Below, one piece after another: positions 9,053 to 62,863 of a DNA stretch of 64,000 nt. The position numbers and the translations under genes were made by a program. The first letter of the stretch is position 1. The number at the start of each line of letters is the position of its first letter. Below the pieces are notes generated by a model. That model made no database searches, was not told the origin of the DNA, and saw nothing but the letters and a program-made list of their open reading frames with translations. The stretch is from Bradyrhizobium elkanii USDA 76 (lineage in GTDB: Bacteria; Pseudomonadota; Alphaproteobacteria; Rhizobiales; Xanthobacteraceae). The stretch lies in assembly GCF_023278185.1 (NCBI RefSeq), contig NZ_CP066356.1, positions 7,184,001-7,248,000 of the forward strand, read 5' to 3'.

Positions 9053-9074
9053 TCACGAGCCCGGCGAAGCTCTC

Positions 9075-9897: not shown

Positions 9898-9905
9898 ATT
9901 TATAC

Positions 9906-11602: not shown

Positions 11603-11683
11603 CCCTATGACTCACCCCAGTGCACCGACCGCTTTTGCTGCTCCGGCCACGTACGAACTTCATTCGTTAGGCTCGAAGGCGTT

Positions 11684-12334: not shown

Positions 12335-12342
12335 CTCTGAAA

Positions 12343-12531: not shown

Positions 12532-12705
12532 AGTACCCCACCGAAACTGCCTTCCGGATAATGCCCGTGAAGAAGTGGGGCTGCATATGACCCAGGTTAC
12601 ACTGCAAGATATTTTCCGCAGTTTTGATCGATGCCGCGCGAGATCGATAGCACTTTTGCCAAGGTCAGCTGCTGTGCGCGCCTCGCACCTGGTCGGGCTC
12701 CCGCT

Positions 12706-13935: not shown

Positions 13936-14160
13936 TGCCACGGCGGCATCTCCATAAGTGAACCGTTGTGATCTAGCGAAGAGTCTCGCAGCCATCAAGG
14001 TGGACAAAGAGACGCCGGTTCGCTGCACCCGTCACGTCCGCGACCTCTTTGTCGTATAACCTACGCGGCCCGAACGCTCTGCGCAGCCGGCAGCAAGACC
14101 TAATGCTGAAGCCAGTTCGCCTCAGGGCCTCGGAATCCGAATGACGTCTGAACCTTCGAC

Positions 14161-24404: not shown

Positions 24405-24620
24405 AGTCGTTCGCTCCTGTGAAATCGCCGTGGACGTGGCGCGGGCAATCGAAGGCAGCGCGGCGGAGAGGAGTGACGTGTTCATAAACTTTCTCCCGAT
24501 GAGGCCGATGGGCCACGCTCGCACACCTAGCGCCCCTCGAGCAGAAGCAGCGGAAAGCACGCATGACACAGCGCAGCTTGCGCTATCTTGCGGACCGATT
24601 CACTGCAAGCTGCGTGCCGG

Positions 24621-25046: not shown

Positions 25047-25077
25047 GGGTGGCAGAGCTAGCTTTCGGGAAGCTGAC
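25047..25077 (-). promoter_or_regulatory. tts box upstream of the small secreted-protein candidate
   Basis: On the minus strand 25077-25061 reads GTCAGCTTCCCGAAAGC, continuing TAGCTCTGCCACC, a close match to the tts-box consensus including the CC-rich distal half. It directs transcription toward the ATG at 24971. Confidence 0.8.
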
Positions 25078-30555: not shown

Positions 30556-31785
30556 CTATTCGGGCGTTCCTCCGGGAAGGACGCGGAGTGCCGCGAGCAG
30601 CGAACCGTCATCAGCGAACAGGTCCCAGATCATGATCCCGGCGAGTCCACGGCCCGCCGCGTACATCGTCTTTCGTGCGATGGAGAGCGGATCGTCGTAG
30701 CTGATCCATATGCGCCGTTCGGCGTCATAGAGCCAAGGCACCTGGGCCTCATCGCTCCAATACCTGCGAAAGCCCAACTCTTCCGGTCGCCTGGCAACGA
30801 TATCCCGATAATCGATGCCGTCGCTCCCTCCCCACTCCTCGCTCGCCGCCGCGCCCTTCTGGAACAGCCCCCCGTTCTCCTGCGGAACGTCCGCAACAGC
30901 CCGGCCATAGAAAGCTACCCCGAGCGCTACCTTGGCAGGCGGTACGCCGGCCCGGATCAAGGCATTCACACTTGCATCGACATTGAGATCAGGATCTGGA
31001 TCGCCGGCGCAGGCGAACAGCGGAGCGTTGAAGCCGGCAAAGGCCGAGCCGGCGCGATAGTCATAGGCCATCAGATGAAGCCGGTCGACCAGCCGGGCCA
31101 GGGCGGCCGCCTCCAGATTGACAATCTTGTCGGGAACGGCCGACACAGCGATGGTAAGCTCCAACTCCCTGTGCTCCGATGCAGAAAACTCGTCAAGCTG
31201 TCGGCGCAATTCCGCTATCAAGAGTGTGAAATTCGGACGATCCTCAGGGTGCACCAGGTTTTCCGCACGTCCTCCCGAGACGGGAAACTCCCAATCAATG
31301 TCCACACCATCGAACATTCCAGGATAGGGCCGAAAGAACGCATCGATCACGGATCGTGCGAACCGCTCGCGAGAGAGCGGCATGGCAGCGGCGGCCGAGA
31401 AATACTTCGATCCATTCCAACCGCCCAGCGAGATCAGAATCCGAAGCTGCGGATTGTCCCGCTTCAATTCGGCGAGTTGGGCGAAGTTACCGCCGAGCGG
31501 ACTCGAGAGCGAGATTCCATCGCAGGCTCCCGCGTCAAGGCAACGATCCGCAAGTTCGGCCAGTCCCTCCGTCGAAACGGTACCGAACGCATACATCAAG
31601 TGGGTCAGCTCGCGAACCGGAATCGTCCTGATGCCTGGACCGCCTGCCCGGGCCTTCCACGGGGCGACATAGCCTGCGATGACGGCGCTCCGGGCCGGCG
31701 CGGTCCGGCCCTGTTGAACCAGCGCATATCCGCCCACAAGCGCAGAAAACCCGCCCAGAGCGAAGGTTCGACGATCAACTGCCAC
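30556..31785 (-). CDS. GH18 glycoside hydrolase (chitinase-like), exported
   Basis: 409 residues. An N-terminal MAVDRRTFALGGFSALVGGY has the RR and hydrophobic stretch of a Tat-type leader. The GH18 barrel shows LRILISLGGWNGSKYFSAAA (the SxGG motif), then FDGVDIDWEFPVSGG with the full DxxDxDxE catalytic motif, and LHLMAYDYRAGSAFAG. GH18 enzymes hydrolyse beta-1,4-GlcNAc polymers. In a rhizobium likely substrates are chitin oligomers or the bacterium's own Nod factors, but the sequence alone does not decide. The gene appears intact and stands apart from other sugar genes. Confidence 0.88.
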   Translation of the reverse strand: MAVDRRTFALGGFSALVGGYALVQQGRTAPARSAVIAGYVAPWKARAGGPGIRTIPVRELTHLMYAFGTVSTEGLAELADRCLDAGACDGISLSSPLGGNFAQLAELKRDNPQLRILISLGGWNGSKYFSAAAAMPLSRERFARSVIDAFFRPYPGMFDGVDIDWEFPVSGGRAENLVHPEDRPNFTLLIAELRRQLDEFSASEHRELELTIAVSAVPDKIVNLEAAALARLVDRLHLMAYDYRAGSAFAGFNAPLFACAGDPDPDLNVDASVNALIRAGVPPAKVALGVAFYGRAVADVPQENGGLFQKGAAASEEWGGSDGIDYRDIVARRPEELGFRRYWSDEAQVPWLYDAERRIWISYDDPLSIARKTMYAAGRGLAGIMIWDLFADDGSLLAALRVLPGGTPE

Positions 31786-35135: not shown

Positions 35136-36116
35136 ATGCGGGCTCTATCACCTACTGTCCTCGCCAACGGCCGTATCCGGTCCACCACCCGGTCATTTGC
35201 CGAGATGCTGCGCGCGCAGGTCTGCTGCAGCAGCGAAATTTCGTTCCTCATGGAAGCGCATGATGGGCTCTCCGCCGCAATCGCCGGACGCGCAGGTTTC
35301 AAGGGCCTCTGGGCATCGGGCCTGTCGATTGCCTCCTCGCTCGGATATCGCGACGCCAGTGAAGCATCCTGGAGCCAGCTCGCCGGGGTCGTCGAGCGAA
35401 TCGTGGACTCGGGCCAGCTACCGGTTCTGGTCGACGGGGACGGCGGCTTCGGGAACTTCAACAACGCCCGTTTGCTGGCCCGCAAACTCCGCCAGTGTGG
35501 TGCTGCCGGCGTCGCACTGGAAGACAGCTGCTTTCCGAAGACGAACTCGCTCCTTGGCGACCGGCATCCCCTTGCCGACGTCGATGAGTTCTCAGGCCGC
35601 CTGCGCGCCGTAAAGGACACGGTCGCGGACGATCTGATTCTCGTGGCTCGTATCGAATCGCTGATCGCCGGCCACGAAATCGACGATGCAATCTCCCGCG
35701 CCCACGCCTATGCCGAGGCAGGAGCTGACGCGATCCTTATTCACTCGCGAAGAACCGCCGCGGACGAGATCTTCGCATTCACCAAGGCCTGGCAGAACAA
35801 GTTACCGGTCGTGATCGTTCCAACGAAGTACTATCGAACGCCGGTTTCGGCATATCGCAAGGCCGGTATTTCCACGGTGATCTGGGCCAATCACTCCATG
35901 CGCGCTGCAACAGCGGCAATGCGGCAGGTCTGCAGTCGCATTGTCGCCGAGGAGAGTACTGCCGGCATTGAGCCTGCAATTGCGACGCTCGATGAAATCT
36001 TCGAACTGTTCAGATACGATGAACTCGCTGATGCGGAAGCGCGATATCTGCCTCAGCGACGACGCCCGGAGCGCCATGAACAAAGCAGCAATGATTTTGA
36101 AGGATTGCTGTCATGA
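35136..36116 (+). CDS. pepM: Phosphoenolpyruvate mutase (phosphonate biosynthesis)
   Basis: 326 residues from the ATG at 35136. The fold is the isocitrate lyase/PEP mutase barrel: PVLVDGDGGFGNFNNARLLA holds the Mg-binding DGD, and GVALEDSCFPKTNSLLGDRH is the mutase gating loop; the FPKTNS stretch matches true mutases rather than lyases, although the usual EDK is EDS here. VARIESLIAGHEIDDAISRA, VVIVPTKYYRTPVSAYRKAG and VIWANHSMRAA closely follow biochemically known PEP mutases. It converts PEP to phosphonopyruvate, the entry to nearly all C-P natural products. The equilibrium is unfavourable, so a following enzyme must pull it. First gene of a same-strand run to 39982. Confidence 0.92.
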   Translation: MRALSPTVLANGRIRSTTRSFAEMLRAQVCCSSEISFLMEAHDGLSAAIAGRAGFKGLWASGLSIASSLGYRDASEASWSQLAGVVERIVDSGQLPVLVDGDGGFGNFNNARLLARKLRQCGAAGVALEDSCFPKTNSLLGDRHPLADVDEFSGRLRAVKDTVADDLILVARIESLIAGHEIDDAISRAHAYAEAGADAILIHSRRTAADEIFAFTKAWQNKLPVVIVPTKYYRTPVSAYRKAGISTVIWANHSMRAATAAMRQVCSRIVAEESTAGIEPAIATLDEIFELFRYDELADAEARYLPQRRRPERHEQSSNDFEGLLS

Positions 36117-36325
36117 AGTCGTCTGGCATCCGGTCCGGAGCAAGCGACTCAAGGTTCTTTTCAACCGGCATGACGTCGAACGACAGACAGCCTGTCTCGT
36201 CGTACCGCCGTGCCTTACCGGCATCCCTAATTCTCTCAATCGCTTCACCGTTTGAAGGGCTCGCCGTCCATCCGGAGCGGCTGCTCTCCAGGATGAACGG
36301 CCTTCCCGAGTGGAATGGTGATTAG
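36113..36325 (+). CDS. Possible small coupled ORF after pepM
   Basis: 70 codons; the ATG overlaps the pepM stop (ATGA). The sequence, MKSSGIRSGASDSRFFSTGM then SYRRALPASLILSIASPFEG, matches nothing I know, and the gap to 36462 holds no other gene. It could be a small real gene or the relic of a cluster enzyme. Confidence 0.25.
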   Translation: MKSSGIRSGASDSRFFSTGMTSNDRQPVSSYRRALPASLILSIASPFEGLAVHPERLLSRMNGLPEWNGD

Positions 36326-36461
36326 CTGCGCTTCGCGCCACAGCAACAAACACAGCCAACGCGCTGAACGAGGCGTCAGACGCCTGGCGCAACGCCCGGC
36401 TCTCTCATCGAAGTCTGCGACTCGAATTGATCCGTGGCCCGGGACAACGAAAGAGAACCGA

Positions 36462-37262
36462 ATGGCAAGCACCGCTCCCAGACATGCCGTCGTTCTTGCC
36501 GCCGGCGCCGGTTCCCGCTTGCGACCCCTGACCGATCTGCGGCCAAAGCCATTGGTCGAGGTCAATGGAACGCCGATACTCCACAACGCCCTGCGACGTC
36601 TGGAGGCGGTCGGCGTGCAGGAAGTGACGATCGTCATCGGTTACCGAAAGGACGCAATTCAATATGCGTGCGGCAAGCGCTTCGGCAAGCTGAAAATCGA
36701 CTACGTCGAGTCTTCGGTTTTCGATCGCACGGGCAGCGCATACTCGCTTTGGCTGGCGCGCGACGCGCTCCTGCGCGGCGACATCTACCTCCTCGAGGGT
36801 GACGTATTTTTCGAGGAGGACGCGCTGCACTGTCTTGCCCGCGGCACATCTCCTGACGCAGCAGCCGTTGCGCCATTTCTGGCAACAATGCAAGGATCTG
36901 CAGTCCTGCTCTCCGAGTGCGGGTTCATCTCGAGCTTTCGCATGAAACAGTCCGGCGCCGACCTGCCGGCCGGCGGGCCGATGCTTTTCAAGACACTCAA
37001 TCTGTTTCGACTCTCGGAATCGACCCTGGAGACGACGATTGTGCCTGCACTTAAGGACATTATCGGTTCAGGAGCTACTCAGGCTTACACCGAAGAACTG
37101 CTGGCATTTCTGATCGAACGGCGCGGCCTGCGGCTCGCGGCAGCGCGATGCGATCATCTGCGCTGGTGGGAGATCGACACGGCCGACGATCTTCGCATCG
37201 CAAGCAGCCTGTTCGCCGACGAGAGCATAACACGGCGGCAGGCCGGCCCCCGAAATGATTGA
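36462..37262 (+). CDS. NTP-transferase, likely CTP:phosphonate (PntC/LicC-like) cytidylyltransferase
   Basis: 266 residues from the ATG at 36462; the frame is open upstream but that part lacks family character. RHAVVLAAGAGSRLRPLTDL then RPKPLVEVNGTPILHNALRR is the nucleotide-binding loop LxAGxGxRLxPxTxxxPKPL, and IYLLEGDVFFEED the metal-binding Asp. Size and sequence fit LicC/PntC enzymes that activate phosphocholine or 2-aminoethylphosphonate as CDP/CMP derivatives. Placed between PEP mutase and a CDP-alcohol phosphatidyltransferase, activation of a phosphonate head group with CTP is the most economical role. A sugar-1-phosphate nucleotidylyltransferase is the alternative. Confidence 0.82.
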   Translation: MASTAPRHAVVLAAGAGSRLRPLTDLRPKPLVEVNGTPILHNALRRLEAVGVQEVTIVIGYRKDAIQYACGKRFGKLKIDYVESSVFDRTGSAYSLWLARDALLRGDIYLLEGDVFFEEDALHCLARGTSPDAAAVAPFLATMQGSAVLLSECGFISSFRMKQSGADLPAGGPMLFKTLNLFRLSESTLETTIVPALKDIIGSGATQAYTEELLAFLIERRGLRLAAARCDHLRWWEIDTADDLRIASSLFADESITRRQAGPRND

Positions 37263-37280
37263 TTGCGACAAGTGAGTGCC

Positions 37281-37895
37281 ATGCTCCGGTATCTGCTCGA
37301 TCCGGCTAACGCGATCACAGCATCGGGCATGATATTGTCCGGGGTCGCCTTGTCTCTCGTGACGGACGGCCGCATCGAACTTGCCGTTGCAGTCGCACTC
37401 TGGGCAATGCTTGCAGACCATCTCGACGGGATTGTCGCACGCCGGATCCGGAACCGTTCAGAAGCAGCCGCAACGATGGGCAAGAGTCTCGACGGCTTCT
37501 CTGATCTCATTTACGGCGCGGTATTTCCCTCGATCGCGTTGCTGCAGTTGCACGGCGTCACCCTGCTGTCTGCCGCTGTGGGCACCACGCTGCTCGTCGC
37601 AGGTGCCCTCCGTCTGAGCTACTTTGGAATCACTGGCCTGTCGACGGATCGTTGCTTTACGGGTCTGCCGTTATCCTATGACGTTCCGATCCTTGCACTC
37701 CTCGTGCTGGCAGAGCCCTTTGTGCAACAGCCATTGTTCTCATGGCTGCTTCCCGGCACCTTTGCCACACTCGCCGCGTTGCACGTTTCATCCATTCGGG
37801 TTCCGGCCCCGACCCGATCGATGTACATCGCAATTGTTCTGTTCAGCGTCGCGGCTTCAGCCGCTCTGTCGATCCGTGCGCTGTTTTTTGCCTAG
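37281..37895 (+). CDS. CDP-alcohol phosphatidyltransferase-family membrane enzyme
   Basis: 204 residues from the ATG at 37281; GTG 37272 and TTG 37263 are alternatives. The motif reads DHLDGIVARRIRNRSEAAAT then MGKSLDGFSDLIYG, the DGxxAR...G...D...D signature of CDP-alcohol phosphotransferases, with a 12-residue rather than 8-residue middle gap. About six hydrophobic helices follow. The family moves a phospho-group (or phosphonate) from a CDP/CMP carrier to an alcohol acceptor. Next to a cytidylyltransferase it would transfer the activated phosphonate to a lipid or small alcohol. Its 5' end nearly touches the previous gene. Confidence 0.85.
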   Translation: MLRYLLDPANAITASGMILSGVALSLVTDGRIELAVAVALWAMLADHLDGIVARRIRNRSEAAATMGKSLDGFSDLIYGAVFPSIALLQLHGVTLLSAAVGTTLLVAGALRLSYFGITGLSTDRCFTGLPLSYDVPILALLVLAEPFVQQPLFSWLLPGTFATLAALHVSSIRVPAPTRSMYIAIVLFSVAASAALSIRALFFA

Positions 37896-37925
37896 CCGGA
37901 TCCCCTCATGCGCCAGGAGGCACCA

Positions 37926-39062
37926 ATGCGCAAGGACGTTATCGACTTGTCACGAGCGGTACCGCCGGTCGTTCCGGCCCTGGAGGCCGCGCTCGCAAAG
38001 AGCATCGAGGCACGAGTTTACCGTCCTGACGCCGGAGGGCTTCTGAGAACAAACCGGCCGCGCGGAACAGAGGAGGATCGAAGAACCGGGGCGGAATGGA
38101 TCTCCCAGCGCCTCGGATTCACGCCGGACATCGACCGCATGATTGTCACCAATGGCACCCTGAATGTCCTGTTCCTGCTGCTGAACCACCTCGTGGGCAG
38201 AAGCGGCACATTGCTCACCGAAGAGATGACGTATCCCAACATGCAGGCGCTGTCCGGCATCCTTGGCTTCAATATCAGGGGAATACCGATGGATCGTGAA
38301 GGGTTGAAACCTGACGCGTTCGAGGATGTTTGCCGCAAGATCGACACGTCCAAGGTTCTTTACACGATTCCTACTGTGCAGAACCCCACGGCGGCCGTGA
38401 TGTCATCCGGAAGACGCGTCGAGATAGCCACGATAGCGCGAAGATACAACGTTCTGATCATCGAGGATGATGCACAGGCACTGATGGTCGAGGACGCGGG
38501 AGCTCCGATTGCAACGCTCGCTCCGGAGCTTACCTGGTATGTGATGGGGCTGGCCAAGACGGTCGTGATGGGAATGCGCGTGGCGTTCCTGATGGCTCCG
38601 CGAGCAGGGGATGCCACCGCATTGATGGAAAAATTCGGCAAGATGTCGATGTGGTTTGTGGCTGCACTGCACGCCGAACTTGCCCAGGCCTTCGTTGCGA
38701 ACAGGACCGCACATGAGGCAACAACAAGCATCCGGAAGATCGCCGCCTCACGGCGCCGGATTGCCGCAGACGTCCTGCAAAGGCCTGATCTTGCCGGCGG
38801 GCCGCTGGGACTTCACGTCTGGGTCCCGACCCGACCGGACGCCAGGAGCCTGGCGAGCGAGGCTCTGGCGGCAGGTGTACTTGTGCGTCCAGGTTTTCAG
38901 TTTGCAGCTGAACCGGTACCGACCGGAGCGATGCAAGGACTTCGGGTGTCATACTGCGAAACACGTAACGAGGACGATCTGCGACGCGGTCTGGCGATCT
39001 TGGCAAAGATCATTTCGGCCCGGGACGCCTGGCCGGATACTGCGGCTACCTGCGGTCATTGA
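37926..39062 (+). CDS. PLP-dependent fold-I aminotransferase
   Basis: 378 residues from the ATG at 37926 with CAGGAGG upstream. RMIVTNGTLNVLFLLLNHLV is the PLP-phosphate loop region, VLYTIPTVQNPTAAVMSSGR the substrate-binding NP motif, VLIIEDDAQALM the ring-stacking Asp segment, and WYVMGLAKTVVMGMRVAFLM should hold the PLP lysine (AKTVVMGMR). The profile is that of MocR/2-aminoadipate-type aminotransferases without the N-terminal HTH. In this context it may transaminate phosphonopyruvate to phosphonoalanine and so pull the PEP mutase reaction, or act later. Substrate not provable here. Confidence 0.85.
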   Translation: MRKDVIDLSRAVPPVVPALEAALAKSIEARVYRPDAGGLLRTNRPRGTEEDRRTGAEWISQRLGFTPDIDRMIVTNGTLNVLFLLLNHLVGRSGTLLTEEMTYPNMQALSGILGFNIRGIPMDREGLKPDAFEDVCRKIDTSKVLYTIPTVQNPTAAVMSSGRRVEIATIARRYNVLIIEDDAQALMVEDAGAPIATLAPELTWYVMGLAKTVVMGMRVAFLMAPRAGDATALMEKFGKMSMWFVAALHAELAQAFVANRTAHEATTSIRKIAASRRRIAADVLQRPDLAGGPLGLHVWVPTRPDARSLASEALAAGVLVRPGFQFAAEPVPTGAMQGLRVSYCETRNEDDLRRGLAILAKIISARDAWPDTAATCGH

Positions 39063-39193
39063 TCGCTGTGCGGCGGTCCGGCCATAACAGTTTGCGAGAT
39101 CGCGACTGACAGGCGCCCGTCGGGCGGAGATTACCACCCCGGCAGGCTCACTTCACGGCAGCTGTTGCAGGATGAGGACGAGGAGAAGGCCGC

Positions 39194-39982
39194 ATGACGG
39201 AAGCAAGCGAACTGTTTCGCGGAGCGGCGCGCTACTACACACGACACAGGCTCGGCTATCCCGAAGATCTGTTCCGATCATTACTTCGCGTCTGCCGGCT
39301 CGCAGACAGGAGCCGCGCGATCGACCTCGGTGCGGGGACCGGACAGATCAGCATTCCCCTTGCCCATTCGATTGCGGATGTGCTGTCCGTCGATCCCAAT
39401 GATGAAATGATCGAGGAAGGCAGGCGAAGGGCGAGGGAAAAAGGACTTGCGAACATCCGGTTTGTGGTATCGCGATCTGAAGATCTTCCCGAACCTGCGC
39501 CCTTGTTTCACATTGCGACGATTGCGAGCTCATTTCACTGGATGGAGCGAGACAGGGTACTTTCAAAGCTGTGCCGGATGCTGGAGCCGGACGGGTGCGT
39601 TGCGATCATCGATCGCGAGCGGCGCGGTTCGCAGCCCGACGGATGGACCACAGCGATGTGGAACGAAATGAGAGATTTCTGGGGAGGGAGCTTTCCGGCG
39701 GGTCCTGGGACCGTCCGGCAAATGACCGTGTCGCACCTTGAGATGCTCCAGGCTTCCGCCTTCAATGAAGTAACAGAACTACGTCACTACTACGAGCACA
39801 AATGGAACATCGATGATCTTCTGGGTTACCTTTATTCCACGTCTGCAGGTGCTCCGGGTACTCTGGGTCCTCGTCGTGACGAGTTTGCGAGGCGCATGCG
39901 CCGCCTGCTGCTGTCCTGTTCACCCTCCGGCTCCTTTGTAGAACAGGGCTACATCACGACATTGCTCGGATACAGACCCTGA
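39194..39982 (+). CDS. SAM-dependent class I methyltransferase (copy 1)
   Basis: 262 residues from the ATG at 39194, preceded by GAGGAGAAGG. RAIDLGAGTGQISIPLAHSI is motif I (DLGxGTG), VDPNDEMIEEGRRRA the acidic loop, and RMLEPDGCVAIIDRERRG the post-IV region; ATIASSFHWMERD is the typical UbiE/Methyltransf_11 segment. A paralogue lies at 42261 with the same length and block order, for example FWGGSFPAGPG against FWGGSLPAGPG. Both keep DLGAGTG, so both should bind SAM. Likely tailoring enzyme of the phosphonate cluster; it is the last gene of the run from 35136. Confidence 0.88.
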   Translation: MTEASELFRGAARYYTRHRLGYPEDLFRSLLRVCRLADRSRAIDLGAGTGQISIPLAHSIADVLSVDPNDEMIEEGRRRAREKGLANIRFVVSRSEDLPEPAPLFHIATIASSFHWMERDRVLSKLCRMLEPDGCVAIIDRERRGSQPDGWTTAMWNEMRDFWGGSFPAGPGTVRQMTVSHLEMLQASAFNEVTELRHYYEHKWNIDDLLGYLYSTSAGAPGTLGPRRDEFARRMRRLLLSCSPSGSFVEQGYITTLLGYRP

Positions 39983-40058
39983 TCGTCGCAGGCCCGTACG
40001 CCCGCCTGTCGCGCTTATGCCTTCGCGCTTCCCACGCCCTGGAATAGCAGTCGCCTCT

Positions 40059-41417
40059 TCATGGGCGTCCGCTTCCGCCTGCGCGCAAGAACCCGTTGGG
40101 CGGCCGCTTCAAACCGATGTTCTCTCTCAGGGTTTGTCCGCAGTACGCGGATCTGAATCGTCCCCGTCTGCGCAATTCGGGGACCACAAGCCCGATAAAG
40201 TCCTTGAGTCCGCCGGGAACGGTCGCCGGCATTACGTTGAAGCCATCGGCTGCACCCTGATCAAGGAACTCTATCATGACATCTGCGATTTCGTCCGGTG
40301 TCCCCACGATCATCAGGTGGCCTTTGCTGTCCGATATGAAGTCGATCAGCTGTCGCCAGGTCATGTTCTGCCTTGCCGCCACCTCGAGGAGCAGTTTCTG
40401 TCGACTCTGGACGAGATTTGTCTGCGGCAGGGCCGCGGGGACCCTGGCGTCAAGATCGATCGCGCGCAGATCCGCAACGGAGCCCAGCACGCGATCTGCC
40501 AATCCAATCCGGGCATCGATGTGCGTATAATCTTGCAGTCTTCGGAGGATCCCGGAGGCCTCCTGCCTCGTTCTCCCGACGATCGGGACAAGGCCCGGCA
40601 TGATCAGCACCTCGTCCTCTTCCCGCCCGAGGGCGTGCGCTTTCTTTCTGATCGTTGCGTAGAACCTCTTGCCACCCTCCAGAAACGGCTGGGCGGTAAA
40701 TACGACCTCGGCGAATTCTGCAGCGAACGACATACCGGCGTCCGATGCGCCGGCCTGGACCAGCACGGGATGCCCCTGCGGCGGCCTTGCGACGTTCAAT
40801 GGACCTCTGACTGACAGAAATTGCCCGCGGTAATTCAACGGGTGCAGCTTGGTCGTATCAACGAAAATGCCCGTCTTCTTGTTGCGAATGAAAGCATCAT
40901 CTTCCCATGTATCCCAAAGTCCTCTGACGACCTGGACGAACTCTCTCGCGCGCGCATAGCGGGCGTCGTGATCCGGCAGCTCCTCCTGGCCGAAATTGCC
41001 GGCCTCGAACTTATGACCCGAGGTAACAACGTTCCATGCCGCGCGGCCGCCTGACATGTGGTCGAGCGAGGCGAGCATGCGTGCGAGATGATAAGGCTGC
41101 TGGTAAGTCGTTGTCGCGGTCGCAACAAGGCCGATGCTTGTGGTTCTTGACGAGAGCGACGACAGAAGTGTGATTGGCTCGAAGCCGTCGTTCCGGCCCG
41201 CACGAGCTATTGCCGCCGGATCTGGTTCCATTACGCTTGGCGTATCGGCCAGGAAGATGAAGTGAAATGCGGCATCTTCGGCGAGCCGTGCCAGAGATGC
41301 ATAATGATCGATATTGATTCCGCCATTTGCGGGTACGTCCGGATCCCGCCAGGCGCCTTCGTGATATCCCGCCTGGTTGAGAAACAGCCCCAGCTTCATG
41401 TCGCCCCTGTTTGGCAT
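40059..41417 (-). CDS. LLM-class flavin-dependent monooxygenase (NtaA/SnaA/DszA type)
   Basis: 452 residues from the ATG at 41417; an ATG at 41399 giving MKLGLFLNQAGYHEGAWRDP is equally good. FIFLADTPSVMEPDPAAIAR, then LEPITLLSSLSSRTTSIGLV-like core and MSGGRAAWNVVTSGHKFEAG follow the nitrilotriacetate/alkane monooxygenase group of the bacterial luciferase-like superfamily. These use FMNH2 from a separate reductase. It is transcribed against the two flanking methyltransferases. A role in oxidising a C-P or N-containing intermediate is possible; degradation of an exogenous amine or sulfonate is the alternative. Probably cytoplasmic and intact. Confidence 0.85.
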   Translation of the reverse strand: MPNRGDMKLGLFLNQAGYHEGAWRDPDVPANGGINIDHYASLARLAEDAAFHFIFLADTPSVMEPDPAAIARAGRNDGFEPITLLSSLSSRTTSIGLVATATTTYQQPYHLARMLASLDHMSGGRAAWNVVTSGHKFEAGNFGQEELPDHDARYARAREFVQVVRGLWDTWEDDAFIRNKKTGIFVDTTKLHPLNYRGQFLSVRGPLNVARPPQGHPVLVQAGASDAGMSFAAEFAEVVFTAQPFLEGGKRFYATIRKKAHALGREEDEVLIMPGLVPIVGRTRQEASGILRRLQDYTHIDARIGLADRVLGSVADLRAIDLDARVPAALPQTNLVQSRQKLLLEVAARQNMTWRQLIDFISDSKGHLMIVGTPDEIADVMIEFLDQGAADGFNVMPATVPGGLKDFIGLVVPELRRRGRFRSAYCGQTLRENIGLKRPPNGFLRAGGSGRP

Positions 41418-42260
41418 GCCTGTCTCCAGTTCGAAGAAAATCCGCCGGCGCGGTGCCCGTCAGCTGTTCATTCGAGCCAGGGGCTCGCGCCGGCCGGCAG
41501 GCTCAGGTCGTCCGGATTCATTTTGGTCGGCGAGAGCCGCTCCCCTGACAAGGCGAGCAGAAATGCTGGAGGGATATGTCCTCGATCAAGTGCATCGAAA
41601 TGTCGAACCACTGCCGGTCTGATTACTCCAGTTGAAAGACAAACTGTGAAATCGTCACCGCTGAACACTGGTAGGCCCGCAGATCCGTTTCGGCCACACC
41701 GCTCACCGGAGCAGGCGAAGACTTGTTCACCTGACAACCTGATCGCGTGTCGCCCAGCGGAAAGCGCAGCTAAAGATTGCACCATTGCAGGCAGTTGACG
41801 AAACCGGGTAGCGATTGCGAACGAATGTAGCGTCTGCCGAAGCGACGAGGATTACGCTGCAGTCAACTACCGCGTTGGGCAATTGATGCAGCCGGCGAAG
41901 CATGGCATCGGTCGAAAGGAAGCCAGGACACGACCTCCGCACCGCCTTGACCACCGTCGGTTCACACACGCGATCCGCCGGATGTAACCTGCAGAAGTTA
42001 GCTGGCGCCCGGAGCCACTTCAGCGCGCAGCGTCAAGGTCGCAGGGGGCTCCCGGAAGAAGCGATCCTGCGCGTGCCAGTCCGGTCGGGGCTCCGGACCA
42101 ACAGGAGCCTTCTTCCCGGAAAGCCGCGCTTCCGGCGACTGATAGCGATAATGGCAAATTGCAACACTTAACATTTCGGTCCACGGCCGGCGGGTTGCTG
42201 CCCGATTGCCCAGAGGGCAGCGGAGTATACGGGGACCTGAGCAGATGTCCGGAGGCAGTC
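41418..42260. other. Gap between the monooxygenase and the second methyltransferase
   Basis: No convincing gene in about 840 bp. It must contain the divergent promoters for the two flanking genes; a GGAGG ribosome binding site ends it. Confidence 0.45.
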
Positions 42261-43067
42261 ATGTTTGCAGCGAGTGAGATATTCAGTGGTGCTGCGCCCT
42301 ACTACGCGCGGCACGCCGTACCTTATCCGGAGGATGTCTTCAGATCGTTGATCCGGCTTTGCCGCCTCACCACGAGTACTCGTGTACTCGATCTTGGTGC
42401 CGGCACGGGACAGATCGGCCTTCCCCTGGCGCAATCCGTAGGGAACGTGTTTTCCGTCGATCCAAGCAGCGAAATGGTCGAGGAAGGGAGGCGAATGGCA
42501 AGCACCCGTGGAGTCAACAATCTGGACTTCCTCGTGTCGACGTCCGAGAACCTGCAATTGCCCGCCTCATCATTTGACCTCGCAACCATTGCCCTCTCCT
42601 TCCACTGGATGGATCGGGCCGCGACACTGGCAAAGCTGTCACAAATCGTGAAACCTGATGGATGCGTCGCGATCATCGATCGCGTGCGGGAGCATTCCGA
42701 ACCTGGAGAATGGTACAATGCAATGGTGAACGACATTACCGACTTCTGGGGCGGCAGCCTGCCCGCCGGTCCCGGAGGCGTACGGCCAAGGCTGACAGGA
42801 TCGCATCGGGAAGTCCTTGGCGCTTCCGATTTCAACGAAATCACGGAACTTCGTCACGACTACCAGTATCACTGGATCATTGATGACCTTCTTGGCTGGC
42901 TGTCCTCGACCGCAATGGGTGCACCAGGCACTTTGGGCCCCCGTCGCGAAGGGTTTTTGACGCGCGTCCGTCAGCTTTTGCTGTCGCACTCGCCGTCGGG
43001 CTCTTTTATGGACCGCGGTCACATCACGACCTTGATCGGATACCGATCCCGAAGCAAAAGCCTTTGA
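42261..43067 (+). CDS. SAM-dependent class I methyltransferase (copy 2)
   Basis: 268 residues from the ATG at 42261, chosen for the CCGGAGG just upstream and because MFAASEIFSGAAPYYARHAV aligns with the start of the paralogue at 39194. TRVLDLGAGTGQIGLPLAQS is motif I, and SVDPSSEMVEEGRRMAS and VKPDGCVAIIDRVREHSEPG follow in the same order. The ends match the paralogue too: GAPGTLGPRREGF and LLLSHSPSGSF. The pair looks like a duplication with divergence, perhaps giving two successive methylations. It converges on the carbamoyltransferase gene. Confidence 0.88.
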   Translation: MFAASEIFSGAAPYYARHAVPYPEDVFRSLIRLCRLTTSTRVLDLGAGTGQIGLPLAQSVGNVFSVDPSSEMVEEGRRMASTRGVNNLDFLVSTSENLQLPASSFDLATIALSFHWMDRAATLAKLSQIVKPDGCVAIIDRVREHSEPGEWYNAMVNDITDFWGGSLPAGPGGVRPRLTGSHREVLGASDFNEITELRHDYQYHWIIDDLLGWLSSTAMGAPGTLGPRREGFLTRVRQLLLSHSPSGSFMDRGHITTLIGYRSRSKSL

Positions 43068-43256
43068 GCGAGCGCTGGCTGATTTCCGGTGTACGTCCTG
43101 CAGACGTGCCGACGGAGCTCCGTCGGCAACTTTCCATACAGGTTCGAAAACCGCGATTGTTGCGCTGGCCAGATAGCATCAGGGCGATCGATCGAGATCA
43201 CAAACATTGATGACGCGTTCTGATTGAGCCCGCCGGGCGAGGAATACGCGATCGCC

Positions 43257-44954
43257 CTACCCGGAATGGCGCGTTTCGCTCGCCCGAGCTCTGGTCCAGA
43301 GCAGGCCCTCGCTCCATATGTGTCCGACACGTCCCCACCGGCAGGCAGCTGCAACGTCGGGAAAGAAGCCGCATCCATGGTGATTGGCGCTCGTATTGCA
43401 GAGCAGCGGAAGTCCCGTAAGCCTTTCATACTCGACGAGAAGCCGGGCGATCGCGTGCCGGGAGTCACGGGGCACTGTCTGCAATCGCGCGGACCCGTCG
43501 AGGTGCACCACGGCAGGAATCCTGTTTCGCAGTTCAGCCAGCGTCTGGTGCTCGAAAAGCATGTAGCGGTCCGGCGTTCCGGGGCTGAAAAATTCCGGTG
43601 CCCGATCCTCGAGGCAAATCGGCGCCACGGGTCGGAAATGCTCCCGGCATTTGATCCCGTTGAGATGGTTCTTCATCCCTGCTGAGGTCGCGGCAGCAAG
43701 AATGCTCCTGCCCCCCAGAGCTCTCGGTCCGAGCTCGGCTCGACCGTCAAGGAAGACCACAGGGTGGTTGTCGGCCAGGATAGTGGCAAGTTCCTGCATG
43801 CTGCAGGGCGACGCCTCCCATTCGCTTGGTACATCGGCGCGCTGCAGGGCCGGACCGCTATAGACGGACCACTCGAGCGGCACGAAACCCCTGTCTGTTG
43901 CCAGGGCGGAGCAGGCAGCACCGATTGCCGAGCCGCTGTCGTTGGGAAACGGCGGCACCCAGACAGCATCGAACAGGCCTGACGCACGCAGCGTCGTATT
44001 CCATTTGATGTTGAGACCGCAACCGCCGGCAATACAAAGATTTCGGATCCCTGGCAGGTGCGAATGGCGCTGCAAGGCAGCCGTCATTTCCCGGACGAGC
44101 ATACGCTCGAGAAAACAATGAAAAGACGCAAGCACATTTTCAGGCGCGTGATTCCCCAGTCTTGCGATGCTGACCTCGAGGAGGTCGTGCCACGCTGCAA
44201 GCGCGTAATCTATGCTTGCGACCTCTCCGCGGTAATTGCGACCGAGCCTGTCGTCCGCCGCAACACGCTCCTCGTAAAGCTCCTGAAATACCGCCACGAC
44301 CGCTTCATCAAAAGACCCGAGCGCGATATAGGCCATCACCTTGCCGGCAATGCTGCGGTCTCCGCCTCCGGCGCGGTTCGATCTTTTGTAGGGCCCGAAC
44401 TTGTGGCCAGCCAGTACATAGGCATGCCCGATCACCGGAAACAGCGATTCAACAAAACGGGCCTCGTGGCGCTCTACATGATAAAGACGCGGAGGTATAC
44501 CGCCGTCCCACACAAGACAGACAGCGGGTTTTCCTGTCTGCGCAAACGGGCTGGTGCAGTAGGCCGACGCAAGATGCCCTGTCACATGCGGGTAGCTCCT
44601 GTAAGACAGGACTTCGCGACCGAGCATGAGGCCCGAACTTTCGCACGCAGCCAGCAGACCGCTGGCGTACGGCTCAAGATAGGGCGCCGCCTTGAGAGTG
44701 ACAGGCTTGTTACTGCTGACGACATCGAACCGCGTCCGTGGGTCACCGGGCCAACCGTCGATGACGTACTCATCGATGTCCTTCGGACCCAGACCCTGCG
44801 CGGCCAGGGCGACGACAATGTCATCCAGATTGCCAATGTGCAGGTAGCGCGGATTGTTACCGCGCTTTTCCTGCTCAATACAGAAGACAAGACGCCCGTC
44901 CTCGACGAGGGCGATTGCTCCATCATGTGTCAATTTGATACCGCAGATGCGCAT
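43257..44954 (-). CDS. NodU/TobZ-family carbamoyltransferase
   Basis: 565 residues from the ATG at 44954. The N-terminal half begins MRICGIKLTHDGAIALVEDG, with the LTHDGA metal/ATP-binding element, and has FIEQEKRG-like and VTGHLASAYCTSPFAQTGKP blocks. IRNLCIAGGCGLNIKWNTTL is the ASKHA-type GG motif. The C-terminal YrdC-like part has AELGPRALGGRSILAAATSA and CREHFRPVAPICLEDRAPEF. NodU 6-O-carbamoylates Nod factors and TobZ/CmcH act on antibiotics, using carbamoyl phosphate and ATP. Here it may decorate the phosphonate product or a Nod factor; the similarity alone does not decide. Intact. Confidence 0.88.
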   Translation of the reverse strand: MRICGIKLTHDGAIALVEDGRLVFCIEQEKRGNNPRYLHIGNLDDIVVALAAQGLGPKDIDEYVIDGWPGDPRTRFDVVSSNKPVTLKAAPYLEPYASGLLAACESSGLMLGREVLSYRSYPHVTGHLASAYCTSPFAQTGKPAVCLVWDGGIPPRLYHVERHEARFVESLFPVIGHAYVLAGHKFGPYKRSNRAGGGDRSIAGKVMAYIALGSFDEAVVAVFQELYEERVAADDRLGRNYRGEVASIDYALAAWHDLLEVSIARLGNHAPENVLASFHCFLERMLVREMTAALQRHSHLPGIRNLCIAGGCGLNIKWNTTLRASGLFDAVWVPPFPNDSGSAIGAACSALATDRGFVPLEWSVYSGPALQRADVPSEWEASPCSMQELATILADNHPVVFLDGRAELGPRALGGRSILAAATSAGMKNHLNGIKCREHFRPVAPICLEDRAPEFFSPGTPDRYMLFEHQTLAELRNRIPAVVHLDGSARLQTVPRDSRHAIARLLVEYERLTGLPLLCNTSANHHGCGFFPDVAAACRWGRVGHIWSEGLLWTRARASETRHSG

Positions 44955-47995: not shown

Positions 47996-48606
47996 AGACC
48001 GTAATACCTCGATGAAAAACTTTGTGTCGGCAAAATAGTTTGGGTACCGCATCATTGTATGAGCTACGGCGTGCGTAGCTGGCAAACAGGACCTGTGACG
48101 CGTTGCTCGTTCCGCTCCTCGCCGGCTCCTCTCAGGCGCAAGGCTTTCTGTCGCTCGCGCCCGCCGCTGGGCCCACATGCAGCTGTGAGCTGCACTTCCA
48201 TCCGGCCGGTTGCAGAGAGACCAAGAGTGCCGATCCGGGCAAGCGCTGATGAACTAACGCCGGCTCCGTGAGACACCAAACGTACACAGGCAGACTCAAC
48301 GAAGATCAAGTGGCGCGTCTCACGCCTGTTCTGCACGTCGGACTCAACTTCACCTGTCAGACCGGGCGTGACCGAAGCTCATGGCCACGATCTGCATAGT
48401 TCGGCTTGCATGGAGAAAGCGCAGGAATAGATCTGCCTGCGTCGGGACAGGGTCTTCCCCCCTCCGGTTGATGTCGCTTGTTGCAGGCTTTCCGAACCAT
48501 CGCATCTTCCTGAGTTCGCATCGAATTAGTTGATTATAGTCATCCATTTGTAGCGCTCCGGATGCGATGGATCACGCGCCAAGGGTCCTATCTGTTCGGG
48601 GTTATT
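47996..48606. other. Stretch between the IS3 element and the porin gene
   Basis: No recognisable gene. It presumably carries the porin promoter; no defined element was found. Confidence 0.4.
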
Positions 48607-50223
48607 ATGCGAGTCAACATCAAAGACCGTGCTACGGACGCAAACGTTCGGCACATGTATCACAGTGAGCCGCTGTACGTGGCTGCAGACAAAGTCCGGT
48701 TTCGACCAGTCACGAAACAGGGCGGCCTCGCCATCGCGCTGTCGACAGCAGCGTGGCTCGTCTGCAACCCGCTGCCGGCACAGGCAGCCAGCGTTCAGGA
48801 CCAGAAAAGCGATCCTCAGGGTGAGGCCGGGAAGCAAGCGCCCACGAAAACAGGGTCGGTCCCGAAAGCCGATCATCACCGGAAGAAAGCAGGCGCCGCG
48901 TCGACCTCGCGATTGCAGACCGGCGTTCAACGGCGCAAGGCAAATGAAGTTGCGGACAGTTACACGATTGAAAAGAAGCCCGATCCGTTCGCAAAATTCC
49001 AGAACCTCCGCGAAAAGGGACTGGTCGTCAGCATACCCGGGCCAGCCGATACAGTGGTTCAGGATGCCGGTGGCGTGAGATCTGCGCTGGCCGAAGTCGG
49101 CATCGGTTATCTGTTGTGGTCACAGGTCACCTACACAAACAATCTTCTGCCGAATTCGGCCAGAAGCACCATCGCGAACCAGCTCTACAACGGGCAAAAT
49201 CCGACGTTCAACACCGTAAACTACATGTGGGTGACCTATGATCTCAGTCGATATGGTATTCCAGACGGCCAGATCGTCGTGGGGGCCGAGGAGCAATCCT
49301 GGACATGGCAACCTGGCGGGCCGGATCGACTAGGCATCAACACGATTTCGTACTATCAGACTTTCTGGGACAGGAAGCTCGAACTCAAGGTCGGCTATCT
49401 CAGGAATTCACATGAATTCGCCGGCACGGTGGTTGGCGGAAATGCGGGATCAAATGTTTTCGGTCCCTCGTCGAGCATACTTTTCCAGGGAGGCCTGAGC
49501 GCCGCCCCGGCACCGACGCCGGCTCTCAACCTGAAGTACAATTTCGATGATCACCTTTACACCAAGGTGTCCTTCCAGCGTGCCGACAGTCCGGACGGGC
49601 TCTTTACCCAGATCACCGAGAACCCCACGGGCCTGAACTGGAGCACGACGCATGCCGGCGTTCTCTACCTTGATGAAACCGGCTATCTGAACAAGGCCGC
49701 TCCAGGCTCGCCGCAGACCTGGCTGAGGGCGGGGGCAGGTTACAACACCAGCAGCTACAAAAGTCTGGCGCTTCCAAATCAACAGAGAACCGATCCGAAC
49801 ACCTTCTATTACATCGCCGCGGACAGGCAGTTCCTGCAGACGAATGTTCAGGACTCGGCATCTCGTGGCATCTACGGCGGATTCTCGGTCATGGGAGCTC
49901 CTCCTGATCTGAATACGGTCAGCCAGTACTATGAGCTACGCTTTTATGTGAACGGACCTTTCGACTGGCGGCCGACCGACCAGATTTCCATCGTCGCGAC
50001 TGACACGGTGTGGAGCAAGCTGGCGGTCGACGCCGCGCTGGCGAAAGGAAAGCTCGTTCATCGGGACAGTCAGGCAATCGCGGCCACTTACACCGCCCAT
50101 CTCGCACCGGGAGTCTATACAAGTGTAGGACTGACCTACATCAACAATCCAACCAGCATCACGTACACCCCACAGATCGGACATGCCCTGAATTTCTCCG
50201 TGTCAACGAACATCTTCTTCTAG
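48607..50223 (+). CDS. OprB-type carbohydrate-selective porin, outer membrane
   Basis: 538 residues from the ATG at 48607; an ATG at 48655 or one at 48562 is also possible. Near residue 30, GGLAIALSTAAWLVCNPLPA is a signal-peptide core ending QAA. A Lys/Gln-rich linker follows, then a beta-rich body with blocks such as GIPDGQIVVGAEEQSWTW, ELKVGYLRNSHEFAGTVVGG and YNTSSYKSLALPNQQRTDPN, alternating aromatic and polar residues as in 16- to 18-strand porins. The sequence ends with FSVSTNIFF, a C-terminal aromatic as required for outer-membrane insertion. Resembles rhizobial OprB-like porins; sugar specificity cannot be read. Confidence 0.75.
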   Translation: MRVNIKDRATDANVRHMYHSEPLYVAADKVRFRPVTKQGGLAIALSTAAWLVCNPLPAQAASVQDQKSDPQGEAGKQAPTKTGSVPKADHHRKKAGAASTSRLQTGVQRRKANEVADSYTIEKKPDPFAKFQNLREKGLVVSIPGPADTVVQDAGGVRSALAEVGIGYLLWSQVTYTNNLLPNSARSTIANQLYNGQNPTFNTVNYMWVTYDLSRYGIPDGQIVVGAEEQSWTWQPGGPDRLGINTISYYQTFWDRKLELKVGYLRNSHEFAGTVVGGNAGSNVFGPSSSILFQGGLSAAPAPTPALNLKYNFDDHLYTKVSFQRADSPDGLFTQITENPTGLNWSTTHAGVLYLDETGYLNKAAPGSPQTWLRAGAGYNTSSYKSLALPNQQRTDPNTFYYIAADRQFLQTNVQDSASRGIYGGFSVMGAPPDLNTVSQYYELRFYVNGPFDWRPTDQISIVATDTVWSKLAVDAALAKGKLVHRDSQAIAATYTAHLAPGVYTSVGLTYINNPTSITYTPQIGHALNFSVSTNIFF

Positions 50224-51593: not shown

Positions 51594-52020
51594 TCAAAGG
51601 CAGGTCACGGCTTTGACGAACGCCGGAAAGGCTGTACGCACTCTTGCGAGGTTCTCGTCGACTTTGCGCGGATCAAGATCAAACCCATACCGATGCCGGA
51701 TGACGTGACGGAAGCCCTTCAACTCGACAAGGAGGCCGTAGAGTTCGGAGCCAATCAAGGCAGGACGTTTGCCGTCGATCCCGGCTGACACCTGATCCAG
51801 TAGGTCCTGGTGAGCCGACTCGCCAGTCGGCACATAGCCGTCAACGTCGTTTGCGAGGCTCAGCATCAAGTCTTCGATGCCGTTATAGATGTTGTGAACC
51901 CCCAACGCTAAAGCCCAACCTCGCGCCCACTGGTTGACGGGGCCCTTGAGCGAGCCGAGGTAGTCATCAATCTTGACGAGCCCTTGCCTAGCCCGATCAA
52001 GCTTTGTCGCGAGTTTTGCG
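51594..52020 (-). pseudogene. HepT-like toxin, N-terminus cut by the IS66 junction
   Basis: The frame encodes LDRARQGLVKIDDYLGSLKG, then ALGVHNIYNGIEDLMLSLAN and LYGLLVELKGFRHVIRHRYG. The RHVIRHRY stretch fits the RX4HXY active-site motif of HepT-like RNase toxins (HEPN superfamily), and the body is all-helical. It starts abruptly near 52020, where the opposite strand carries the truncated IS66 gene. The usual MNT antitoxin partner is not present next to it. Probably inactive. Confidence 0.7.
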
Positions 52021-53603
52021 AAGGGGATTCGTCACGGCTTGCCGTGTTGTCGGCGGAATGCAGCACGCTGGCGGCCGAGCGTGATGTGGCGATCGCCCAA
52101 CGCGATGCTGCAGTCCAGGAGAACGACAAGCTCCTGATGATCCTGTCCCAGTACAAGCGCACGATCTTCGGTCCCCGCTCCGAGACACTGGATCCCGGAC
52201 AGCTGTCTCTCTTCACCATCACGGCGCAGGCGGCAGGTGCCGCCGCCAACGACGACGGGACCGGAGGCAGGCTGCCTGATGGAGCGGAAGGCCGTAGCAA
52301 GCGACCGGCGCGACGCAACCGGGGGAGGCTTCCGGAGCATTTGCCGCGCATCGACGTCGTGATCGATATCGAGAGCCACATCTGCCCCTGCTGCGGCGAG
52401 CGGCTGCACAAGATCGGGGAGACCGTCAAGGAAGCCTTCGACGTCATTCCGATGCAGTACCAGGTCAAGCGCATTGTGCGTCCGCGCTACGGCTGCCGGG
52501 GATGCCGCCAGGGTGTGCTGCAGGCACCGGCGCCGGCCCAGGCGATCGACGGGGGGATGGTGACGGAAGCCTTGCTGGCCCACATCGCGGTGATGAAATA
52601 CGGCTACCAGCTGCCGCTGTATCGGCAGGAACAGATGTTCGCCGCGCAAGGCATCACGCTTGACCGGCAGACGCTGGCCTCATGGATGGGCCGCGCCGCC
52701 TGGTGGCTGAAGCCGCTTCACACGCTGTTGCGCGACACAGTGATGTCCTACCCGCGGCTGTTTGCCGACGAGACGCCACTGCCGGTTCTCGATCCCGGCC
52801 GTGGCAGGACCAAAGTCTGCCAGTTCTGGGCGATCGCCACCGATGACCGTCCGTGGGGCGGCCCCGCGCCGCCGGCGGTGGTCCACATGTTTGCCGAGGA
52901 TCGCAAGGCGATCCGCGCCAAGCAGCTGTTCGGGGATTACCACGGCATCCTGCAGGTCGACGGCTATGCCGCCTATAAGGGCCTGATCAAGAACGGCGGC
53001 CGTCTGGTGTTGCTGGCGTTCTGCTTCGCGCATGCGCGGCGGAAGTTCTGGGACGTTCACGTCGCGACGAAGTCGCCGATTGCCGCGGAAGCGCTGCAAC
53101 GGATCGCGATGTTCTACGCCATTGAGGATCGCATCCGCGGTCTGCCGGCGGCGCATCGGGCTGCTATGCGGCAAAGCGACACCAGGCCGTTGATCGAGGA
53201 CTTCAAACCCTGGCTTGAGGCGCGACTGCTGGAAGTCTCGAAGAAGTCCGGTCTGGGCAAAGCCATCCGCTACACCCTCAACCATTGGGACGGCCTGACG
53301 CGCTTCATCGACGACGGACGCATTGAAATAGACAGCAATACGGTCGAGCGCAGCATCAAGCCGATAGGCCTGGGAAAGAAGAACTACTTGTTCGCCGGCA
53401 GTGAAGACGGCGCCGAGACATGGGCCATTCTCGCCTCGCTCATCAACACGGCAAAGCTGCAAGACATCGACCCGCGGCACTATCTGACCGATGTTCTCGA
53501 GCGCATCGTCTCCGGACGTACAAAGATCAATCAGCTGCACATGCTGTTGCCGTGGAATTGGAAGGCCGAGCGCGACAGTTCGCTGGCAAAGCTCGCCGCC
53601 TGA
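51984..53603 (+). CDS. tnpC: IS66-family transposase TnpC, 5' end truncated
   Basis: Up to 539 codons; real TnpC character starts near residue 20 (LAVLSAECSTLAAERDVAIA), where family members would already have about 20 residues, so the element's 5' end is missing. IESHICPCCGERLHKIGETV is the zinc-finger, LFADETPLPVLDPGRGR the first catalytic Asp region, ILQVDGYAAYKGLIKNGG the second, and the C-terminus ends LLPWNWKAERDS. IS66 TnpC is the DDE transposase. tnpA and tnpB are absent in front, so it is not autonomous. Confidence 0.85.
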   Translation: MPSPIKLCREFCEGDSSRLAVLSAECSTLAAERDVAIAQRDAAVQENDKLLMILSQYKRTIFGPRSETLDPGQLSLFTITAQAAGAAANDDGTGGRLPDGAEGRSKRPARRNRGRLPEHLPRIDVVIDIESHICPCCGERLHKIGETVKEAFDVIPMQYQVKRIVRPRYGCRGCRQGVLQAPAPAQAIDGGMVTEALLAHIAVMKYGYQLPLYRQEQMFAAQGITLDRQTLASWMGRAAWWLKPLHTLLRDTVMSYPRLFADETPLPVLDPGRGRTKVCQFWAIATDDRPWGGPAPPAVVHMFAEDRKAIRAKQLFGDYHGILQVDGYAAYKGLIKNGGRLVLLAFCFAHARRKFWDVHVATKSPIAAEALQRIAMFYAIEDRIRGLPAAHRAAMRQSDTRPLIEDFKPWLEARLLEVSKKSGLGKAIRYTLNHWDGLTRFIDDGRIEIDSNTVERSIKPIGLGKKNYLFAGSEDGAETWAILASLINTAKLQDIDPRHYLTDVLERIVSGRTKINQLHMLLPWNWKAERDSSLAKLAA

Positions 53604-62793: not shown

Positions 62794-62863
62794 AGTACCC
62801 TCCATCTCTCTATCTCAAGTAGCGCCTTCTGCCGCGCGAGTGCGCGGGCCGAAATGGCGCTGA

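Follow-up and report, generated by a model that had tools for sequence, protein, structure and literature searches.

In Bradyrhizobium elkanii USDA 76, a stretch of 64,000 nucleotides (contig NZ_CP066356.1, positions 7,184,001 to 7,248,000; the whole stretch is the window below) carries a set of genes headed by pepM, which encodes a phosphoenolpyruvate (PEP) mutase with an altered motif. At the level of protein families, the phosphonate reading of this core is well supported. We propose tentatively, and with somewhat less than even confidence, that the core encodes an accessory pathway for phosphonates, carried on the symbiosis island, which would make an aminophosphonate head group and join it to a lipid alcohol. 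This proposal draws on the family score of PepM and the residues it keeps, on partner counts in related loci, on gene spacing of 18 and 30 bp and on purifying selection. It also draws on an association with nodC in two genera, on nodule expression in Mesorhizobium loti R7A (PMC3538637), on NifA/sigma54-like sites in Mesorhizobium, and on the precedents of PnaA (PMC11867202) and PntC (PMC6697681), as given in the portions of these papers covered here.

The PepM protein scores 195 bits with PF13714 and 327 bits with NCBIfam TIGR02320, narrowly above the cut-off of 319.55. It falls far under the cut-offs of phosphonopyruvate hydrolase (196 bits, cut-off 374), methylisocitrate lyase (135, cut-off 354) and CPEP mutase (72, cut-off 420). 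A sequence-only reading of this DNA had said beforehand that grouping with lyases would count against a mutase, and the scores favour the mutase. Residues 27–307 align with the Mytilus PEP mutase at 317 bits. D58, D85, D87, E114, K120, N122, S123, L124, R159 and H190 (Mytilus numbering), which we take to be catalytic or gating positions, are all kept, K116 is replaced by S, and A86 and T88 are each replaced by G. The diagnostic motif EDKXXXXXNS is not found in the window PepM, which reads EDSCFPKTNS. Judged by family and residues, the protein is a PEP mutase with a changed motif.

Across 79 PepM frames of relatives, the motif residue is S in 57, K in 19 and unreadable in three, and 17 further Mesorhizobium loci read EDT (16) or EDK (1). 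We built a quick maximum-likelihood tree, with the motif column included, from 125 rows thinned to 61; in it the 34 S rows form one side of a single branch (SH-aLRT 99) and the two T rows require two changes. A published survey retained only sequences with EDKXXXXXNS, as a diagnostic filter (PMC6697681). Such a filter would presumably have dropped the EDS and EDT proteins.

The sequence-only reading had treated eight genes between 35136 and 44954 as one cluster. All eight are found there as open frames and match the families it named, by Pfam and NCBIfam models (NTP transferase, CDP-OH_P_transf, Aminotran_1_2, two class I methyltransferases and Bac_luciferase of the NtaA/DmoA family). Purifying selection acts on all of them relative to B. 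acaciae (ratio of nonsynonymous to synonymous substitution rates, dN/dS, 0.10–0.14), and they are therefore not chance frames. With gene starts fixed from the lengths of database relatives, they are:

35205..36116, plus strand: pepM, PEP mutase with EDS replacing EDK (TIGR02320, Mytilus PEP mutase alignment, catalytic positions; open frame from 35136, the start at 35205 yielding 303 amino acids and matching the nearest database proteins)
36462..37262, plus strand: LicC/PntC-like nucleotidyltransferase (NTase; PF00483/PF12804; open frame from 36315)
37281..37895, plus strand: CDP-alcohol phosphatidyltransferase family protein (CDP-alcohol enzyme; PF01066, 36 bits; open frame from 37263)
37926..39062, plus strand: fold-type-I pyridoxal phosphate (PLP) enzyme, the MocR/EhuR-type aminotransferase part without the DNA-binding domain (open frame from 37908)
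39194..39982, plus strand: S-adenosylmethionine (SAM) methyltransferase MT1, probable tailoring enzyme (Methyltransf_25; orthologue in the B. acaciae locus L012)
40059..41417, minus strand: NtaA/DmoA-type LLM flavin monooxygenase (TIGR03860, 524 bits, cut-off 279.7)
42261..43067, plus strand: SAM methyltransferase MT2, possible tailoring enzyme (Methyltransf_25; open frame from 42159)
43257..44954, minus strand: nodU, Nod-factor carbamoyltransferase (NF041651, 1004.5 bits, cut-off 1000)

The coherent unit is narrower than these eight genes. It comprises pepM, the LicC/PntC-like cytidylyltransferase, the CDP-alcohol enzyme, the PLP enzyme and probably MT1, at 35.2–40.0 kb. The NTase gene begins 345 bp after pepM, 18 bp lie between NTase and CDP-alcohol enzyme and 30 bp between the latter and the PLP enzyme, and MT1 begins 131 bp after the PLP enzyme gene. 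The LLM gene, which sits between MT1 and the similar MT2, and nodU lie on the minus strand, opposite to the pepM unit. Among 84 loci compared, the complete order from pepM through nodU recurs only in B. acaciae (L012).

A profile of 11 NTases places LicC (1jyk) first with 71.7 bits, and PntC-AEPT (6pd1) matches with 49.8 bits over almost the whole profile; a PntC/LicC-like cytidylyltransferase beside pepM is a mark of Pnt clusters, and it is found here. The CDP-alcohol enzyme is conserved among relatives, and its profile matches only PssA structures (47 bits) among solved chains. Because the NTase adjoins the CDP-alcohol gene, we infer that the phosphonate would be transferred from cytidine monophosphate (CMP) to a lipid alcohol.

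The best model for the PLP enzyme is EhuR (270 bits, cut-off 480), with a match that starts at model position 92. No GntR-type N-terminal DNA-binding domain was found in it, and Pfam gives only Aminotran_1_2. Among its 43 homologues at 1e-20, the top 19 carry no annotated DNA-binding domain and their named members are Bradyrhizobium, Rhizobium and Phyllobacterium; complete regulators begin at rank 20, with no more than 38% identity. The putative PLP-binding lysine is invariant across 20 aligned sequences. In eight of eight scanned relatives the same slot scores 258–297 bits with the EhuR model. Elsewhere the slot is taken by a CobD/HisC-like protein (CobD 181 and 170 bits, cut-off 290.55). CobD is a threonine phosphate decarboxylase; decarboxylation of phosphonoalanine to 2-aminoethylphosphonate (AEP) at this slot is a natural guess, which we offer as speculation and not as a result. 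Pnt clusters carry an AEP transaminase; the window cluster has a PLP enzyme, but one that is MocR/EhuR-derived.

Many relatives carry an aspartate-aminotransferase-type gene (AAT) between pepM and the NTase gene, for which the best model gives 296 bits (cut-off 550). No AAT remnant was found in the pepM–NTase gap of the window and no orthologue elsewhere in the genome, where the best match is 36% identical. A dedicated aspartate-aminotransferase-like transaminase with pepM, as in the phosphonoalamide type of pathway, is not in the window cluster. As the sequence-only reading had noted, phosphonopyruvate decarboxylase (Ppd) is missing as well: the cluster has none, and the genome has none over the cut-off of 312.5 bits (13 weaker matches, the best 141.5 bits).

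Next, we consider the relatives of this locus. A scan of a contig collection gave 213 PepM relatives; the best 80 of these, which make up 79 loci, are all titled Bradyrhizobium, Mesorhizobium, Rhizobium, Sinorhizobium or 'Rhizobiales bacterium'. In a plasmid collection, 86 records match PepM (28 under 60% identity): Rhizobium 21, Sinorhizobium 16, Agrobacterium 14, Bradyrhizobium 11, Mycetohabitans 9, Mesorhizobium 7, Burkholderia 4, plus a few others. An order-wide sample has a PepM match at 1e-60 in 15 of 397 genomes. The window locus belongs to a large rhizobial family of pepM loci. For example, on MAFF303099 pMLa, on an A. tumefaciens pAt2 plasmid and in R. gallicum and S. fredii, an aminotransferase gene comes after pepM, and a 'phosphocholine cytidylyltransferase' comes next or at some distance. 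No CDP-alcohol gene was found within the stretch taken from R. gallicum, and that of S. fredii lies on the opposite side of pepM. Bradyrhizobium sp. 187 has pepM, cytidylyltransferase, CDP-alcohol enzyme and 'histidinol-phosphate transaminase'.

Gene content was counted with tblastn over the whole locus, a count that misses distant homologues and contig ends, in 78 of the 79 loci (55 S-type, 18 K-type and five with an unread motif; one S-type locus with less than 3 kb downstream was dropped). The 55 S-type loci contain NTase in 47, the CDP-alcohol enzyme in 34, a MocR-like or CobD-like PLP gene in 30 and AAT in 24. SelA-like genes (9), MT2-like genes (5), LLM (2), MT1-like genes (1), Ppd (1) and nodU (1) are rarer. 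All 34 S-type loci with the CDP-alcohol enzyme also have the NTase. Among the 18 K-type loci, NTase is found in nine, AAT in eight, the CDP-alcohol enzyme in eight and Ppd in ten, nine of them without NTase. Two K-type Bradyrhizobium loci, L030 and L043, have a Ppd that passes the cut-off (326 and 339 bits), so that both motif and gene content set the S-type clade apart from these nearest relatives in Bradyrhizobium.

Several loci deserve separate mention. Nine (L030, L031, L033, L038, L039, L040, L043, L044 and L053) represent a second pepM type within Bradyrhizobium: they read EDK, have a Ppd-like gene some 2 kb downstream and lack the NTase. SelA/DgaE-like PLP genes lie behind the core in L080 (13530-16266), which also has a Ppd-like gene slightly below the cut-off (294 bits), and in L087 (13548-15943). 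Tandem pepM copies occur in L010 (6529-12102), with NTase sequence behind each, and in G078:C72. On an Agrobacterium plasmid (L142, A. tumefaciens Sut001 pAt2, 8959-14167), the set reads pepM, aminotransferase, cytidylyltransferase, oxidoreductase and CDP-alcohol enzyme.

These counts bear on how much of the eight-gene cluster stands. Co-occurrence in other genomes, which the sequence-only reading had named beforehand as a test, is borne out for the NTase and the CDP-alcohol enzyme, and its suggestion of a transamination pull gains from the AAT-like genes and from PnaA, a proven phosphonopyruvate transaminase (PMC11867202). The cluster holds for pepM, NTase, CDP-alcohol enzyme, PLP enzyme and probably MT1, and is not confirmed for the minus-strand nodU and LLM genes. 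The eighth gene, nodU, is a nodulation gene; it does not travel with pepM and is a neighbour of the phosphonate unit, not a member, and the suggested carbamoylated product is not supported. We reject NodU as a carbamoylating tailoring enzyme on its equivalog score, its strand and its presence in a single S-type locus. We do not accept the LLM monooxygenase as a demonstrated pathway step, given its strand and two occurrences.

The expected symbiosis-island setting is supported by nodC, which lies 97 kb from pepM on the same contig. We scored 265 Bradyrhizobium genomes for nodC (over its cut-off), pepM (1e-40) and NTase (1e-70). nodC is found in 135 and pepM in 118; 105 have both, 13 only pepM, 30 only nodC and 117 neither. 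Thus nodC accompanies pepM in 105 of 118 genomes and occurs in 30 of the 147 without it (Fisher p value = 7e-31; the genomes are related, so that this and the following p values overstate the evidence). The NTase occurs in 89 genomes, 83 of them with nodC (p value = 5e-25), and pepM without NTase in 30, 22 of them with nodC (p value = 0.011). In a second genus, taken as Mesorhizobium since the pepM coordinates of two of its genomes agree with those on Mesorhizobium plasmids, pepM is found in 41 of 146 genomes, and nodC in 37 of these 41 compared to 64 of the 105 without pepM (p value = 6e-4). For 38 genomes picked for having both matches on one contig, with a single match per gene used where several were available, the median pepM–nodC distance is 101 kb, and it is below 150 kb in 24. 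Three genomes (G183, G185 and G187) have a pepM about 81% identical to that of the window, together with the NTase and without nodC over its cut-off; these strains may have lost nodulation genes or be without them.

Nodule expression is documented in M. loti R7A, where fusions were made to pepM (msi327), aatA (msi326) and asnB (msi323) (PMC3538637). In nodules, pepM gave 827 Miller units compared to 7.7 in a nifA2 mutant and aatA gave 2456 compared to 16; expression in broth stayed below 20 Miller units (PMC3538637). The authors describe these genes as lacking NifA/RpoN promoters and direct NifA activation as highly unlikely (PMC3538637). In Mesorhizobium loci we find, upstream of pepM, TGGCATGGCTCTTGCT or near variants, with two TGT-N10-ACA sites about 68–89 bp upstream. 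Such pairs were counted at five loci in one scan and at 8 of 27 sites in another, several loci being shared, and L082 and its copy L169 have a sigma54-like site without TGT-N10-ACA. Among the 17 further Mesorhizobium loci, 16 have CGGCACGCGCCTTGCT and ten have TGTCGGAAGCCCGACA about 81 bp upstream. One of these loci (L152) is taken to lie in MAFF303099, as the other pepM of its genome has the pMLa coordinates. By chance, a comparable NifA/sigma54 pair arises in 247 of 20000 random 700-bp windows. As the loci are near-copies and R7A itself lies outside the set, we treat these predicted sites as a lead. In Bradyrhizobium, where we give lone TGT-N10-ACA sites no weight, a pair lies upstream of one locus only (L036) and is treated as chance. 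Sigma54-like matches over the whole window number 29, compared to 32 by chance.

Further genes and sites occur in the window. A prolyl-oligopeptidase-like gene (22368-24569, minus strand, 129 bits) has a sigma54-like site with one mismatch upstream (24604-24619, minus strand). A gene at 4090-6507 (minus strand) resembles NEL-type effectors of type III secretion systems (SlrP model, 484 bits, cut-off 1113). Two tts-box-like sites, at 9283-9299 and 25061-25077 (both minus strand), comprise one perfect match and one with one mismatch to the pattern used; with up to two mismatches the window has five matches to this pattern, compared to 1.7 expected. Around the cluster lie genes for a GH18 chitinase-like protein (30556-31785, minus strand), an OprB-type porin (48562-50223, plus strand), an IS66 transposase (51984-53603, plus strand), a TauD-type dioxygenase (56919-57950, minus strand) and a RoxA-like cytochrome (60544-62805, minus strand).

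By analogy, the pathway would work like Pnt tailoring with a PLP-based pull replacing Ppd. PepM, a mutase by family, would convert PEP to phosphonopyruvate. A PLP aminotransferase may then pull the equilibrium by forming phosphonoalanine; in the window strain, the MocR-derived enzyme or a housekeeping aminotransferase would have to act. The LicC/PntC-like enzyme would form a CMP-phosphonate. More speculatively, an AEP-type group may arise by decarboxylation of phosphonoalanine, or of its CMP ester, in a second PLP step. In Kennedy-pathway fashion, the CDP-alcohol enzyme would take the phosphonate off CMP and pass it to a lipid alcohol, and MT1 would methylate the product. NifA and sigma54 probably activate the Mesorhizobium genes in the nodule.

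Several observations weigh against this proposal. PepM barely passes its family cut-off and is without the diagnostic lysine, the nearest solved relative of the CDP-alcohol enzyme, PssA, is a user of CDP-diacylglycerol, and the window genome is without the AAT of its relatives. The NTase was not seen in eight S-type loci and the CDP-alcohol enzyme not in 21. No NifA/sigma54 pair was found within 2 kb upstream of the window pepM, and no tts-box, nod-box or sigma54-like site near it. Finally, the R7A pepM mutant is fully effective, as are the aatA and asnB mutants (PMC3538637).

The 21 S-type loci without the CDP-alcohol enzyme, together with the variable downstream genes, speak for a product (phosphonate or CMP-phosphonate) that diffuses and acts as a signal or an inhibitor, in which case the CDP-alcohol enzyme would serve some strains and the downstream genes would give different small molecules. 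Phosphonates such as pantaphos do act on plants (PMC7858074). Nonetheless the CDP-alcohol enzyme, where it occurs in S-type loci, always comes with the NTase, as expected of a lipid or surface conjugate, and we regard a diffusible product as rather unlikely. Lower still we place a passenger role, in which the genes merely share islands or plasmids with nod genes and have no important symbiotic function. The effective R7A mutants fit this, as do the five of 88 genomes that have pepM and NTase without nodC, and the Fisher p values are not independent evidence given the relatedness of the genomes. However, low dN/dS, a spread across several genera, nodule-induced expression and the conserved NifA/sigma54-like sites in Mesorhizobium speak against a passenger. 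Least probable, in our estimate, is that the EDS and EDT enzymes have become something other than PEP mutases within the PEP mutase/isocitrate lyase superfamily. K116 has changed to S in one well-supported clade and to T in Mesorhizobium, A86 and T88 are altered too, and the family score is marginal; yet the ten presumed catalytic or gating residues are kept, the neighbourhood is still one of phosphonate tailoring, and K-type relatives outside Bradyrhizobium share its partners.

The head-group proposal has a broader form, which we put forward as doubtful: that a phosphonolipid or related aminophosphonate is made in nodules from genes in many rhizobial symbiosis regions, with Ppd bypassed by PLP chemistry, with EDS (Bradyrhizobium) and EDT (Mesorhizobium) PEP mutases that motif surveys would discard, and with expression in Mesorhizobium switched by NifA together with nitrogen fixation. 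If true, many symbionts would encode in their symbiosis regions a class of compounds that has received hardly any attention in legume symbiosis, with expression in nodules in M. loti, the EDK filter would hide a group of likely phosphonate producers, and the loci would point to a PLP-based route toward aminophosphonate head groups. Judged by titles and the beginnings of abstracts, the literature searched holds no report of a phosphonate product of rhizobial nodules.

Among known systems, Pnt tailoring clusters consist of Ppm, PntC, Ppd and AEP transaminase (PMC6697681). The window shares with them a PEP mutase and a LicC-like cytidylyltransferase, and differs by having no Ppd, an EDS motif and a separate CDP-alcohol enzyme, a term absent from the text of that paper (PMC6697681). 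We do not file the window as a Pnt cluster because neither the EDK motif nor Ppd was found. In FR-900098 biosynthesis, FrbH fuses a cytidylyltransferase to a PLP decarboxylase. The pairing of CMP activation with a PLP enzyme is alike, but the window genes are separate and decarboxylation is at most putative. The phosphonoalamide pathway (PnaD PEP mutase, PnaA) shares transamination of phosphonopyruvate as the pull, and PnaA belongs to the aspartate aminotransferase superfamily, as does the AAT of the relatives of the window (PMC11867202). That pathway continues with peptide ligases (PMC11867202), whereas the window continues with a cytidylyltransferase, a CDP-alcohol enzyme and a MocR-derived PLP enzyme. 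M. loti R7A has pepM on the symbiosis island, with an adjoining aspartate aminotransferase gene and NifA2-dependent nodule expression (PMC3538637); in contrast, the window copy has no aminotransferase gene of this kind and no NifA/sigma54 site was found. In the portions covered here, that paper handles the R7A genes as metabolic genes and proposes no phosphonate (PMC3538637). The free-living Bradyrhizobium sp. S12-14-2, with pepM-ppd-pdh, likewise has a PEP mutase pathway in the same genus (PMC10708946). It uses Ppd (PMC10708946), like the K-type Bradyrhizobium loci and unlike the S-type loci to which the window locus belongs.

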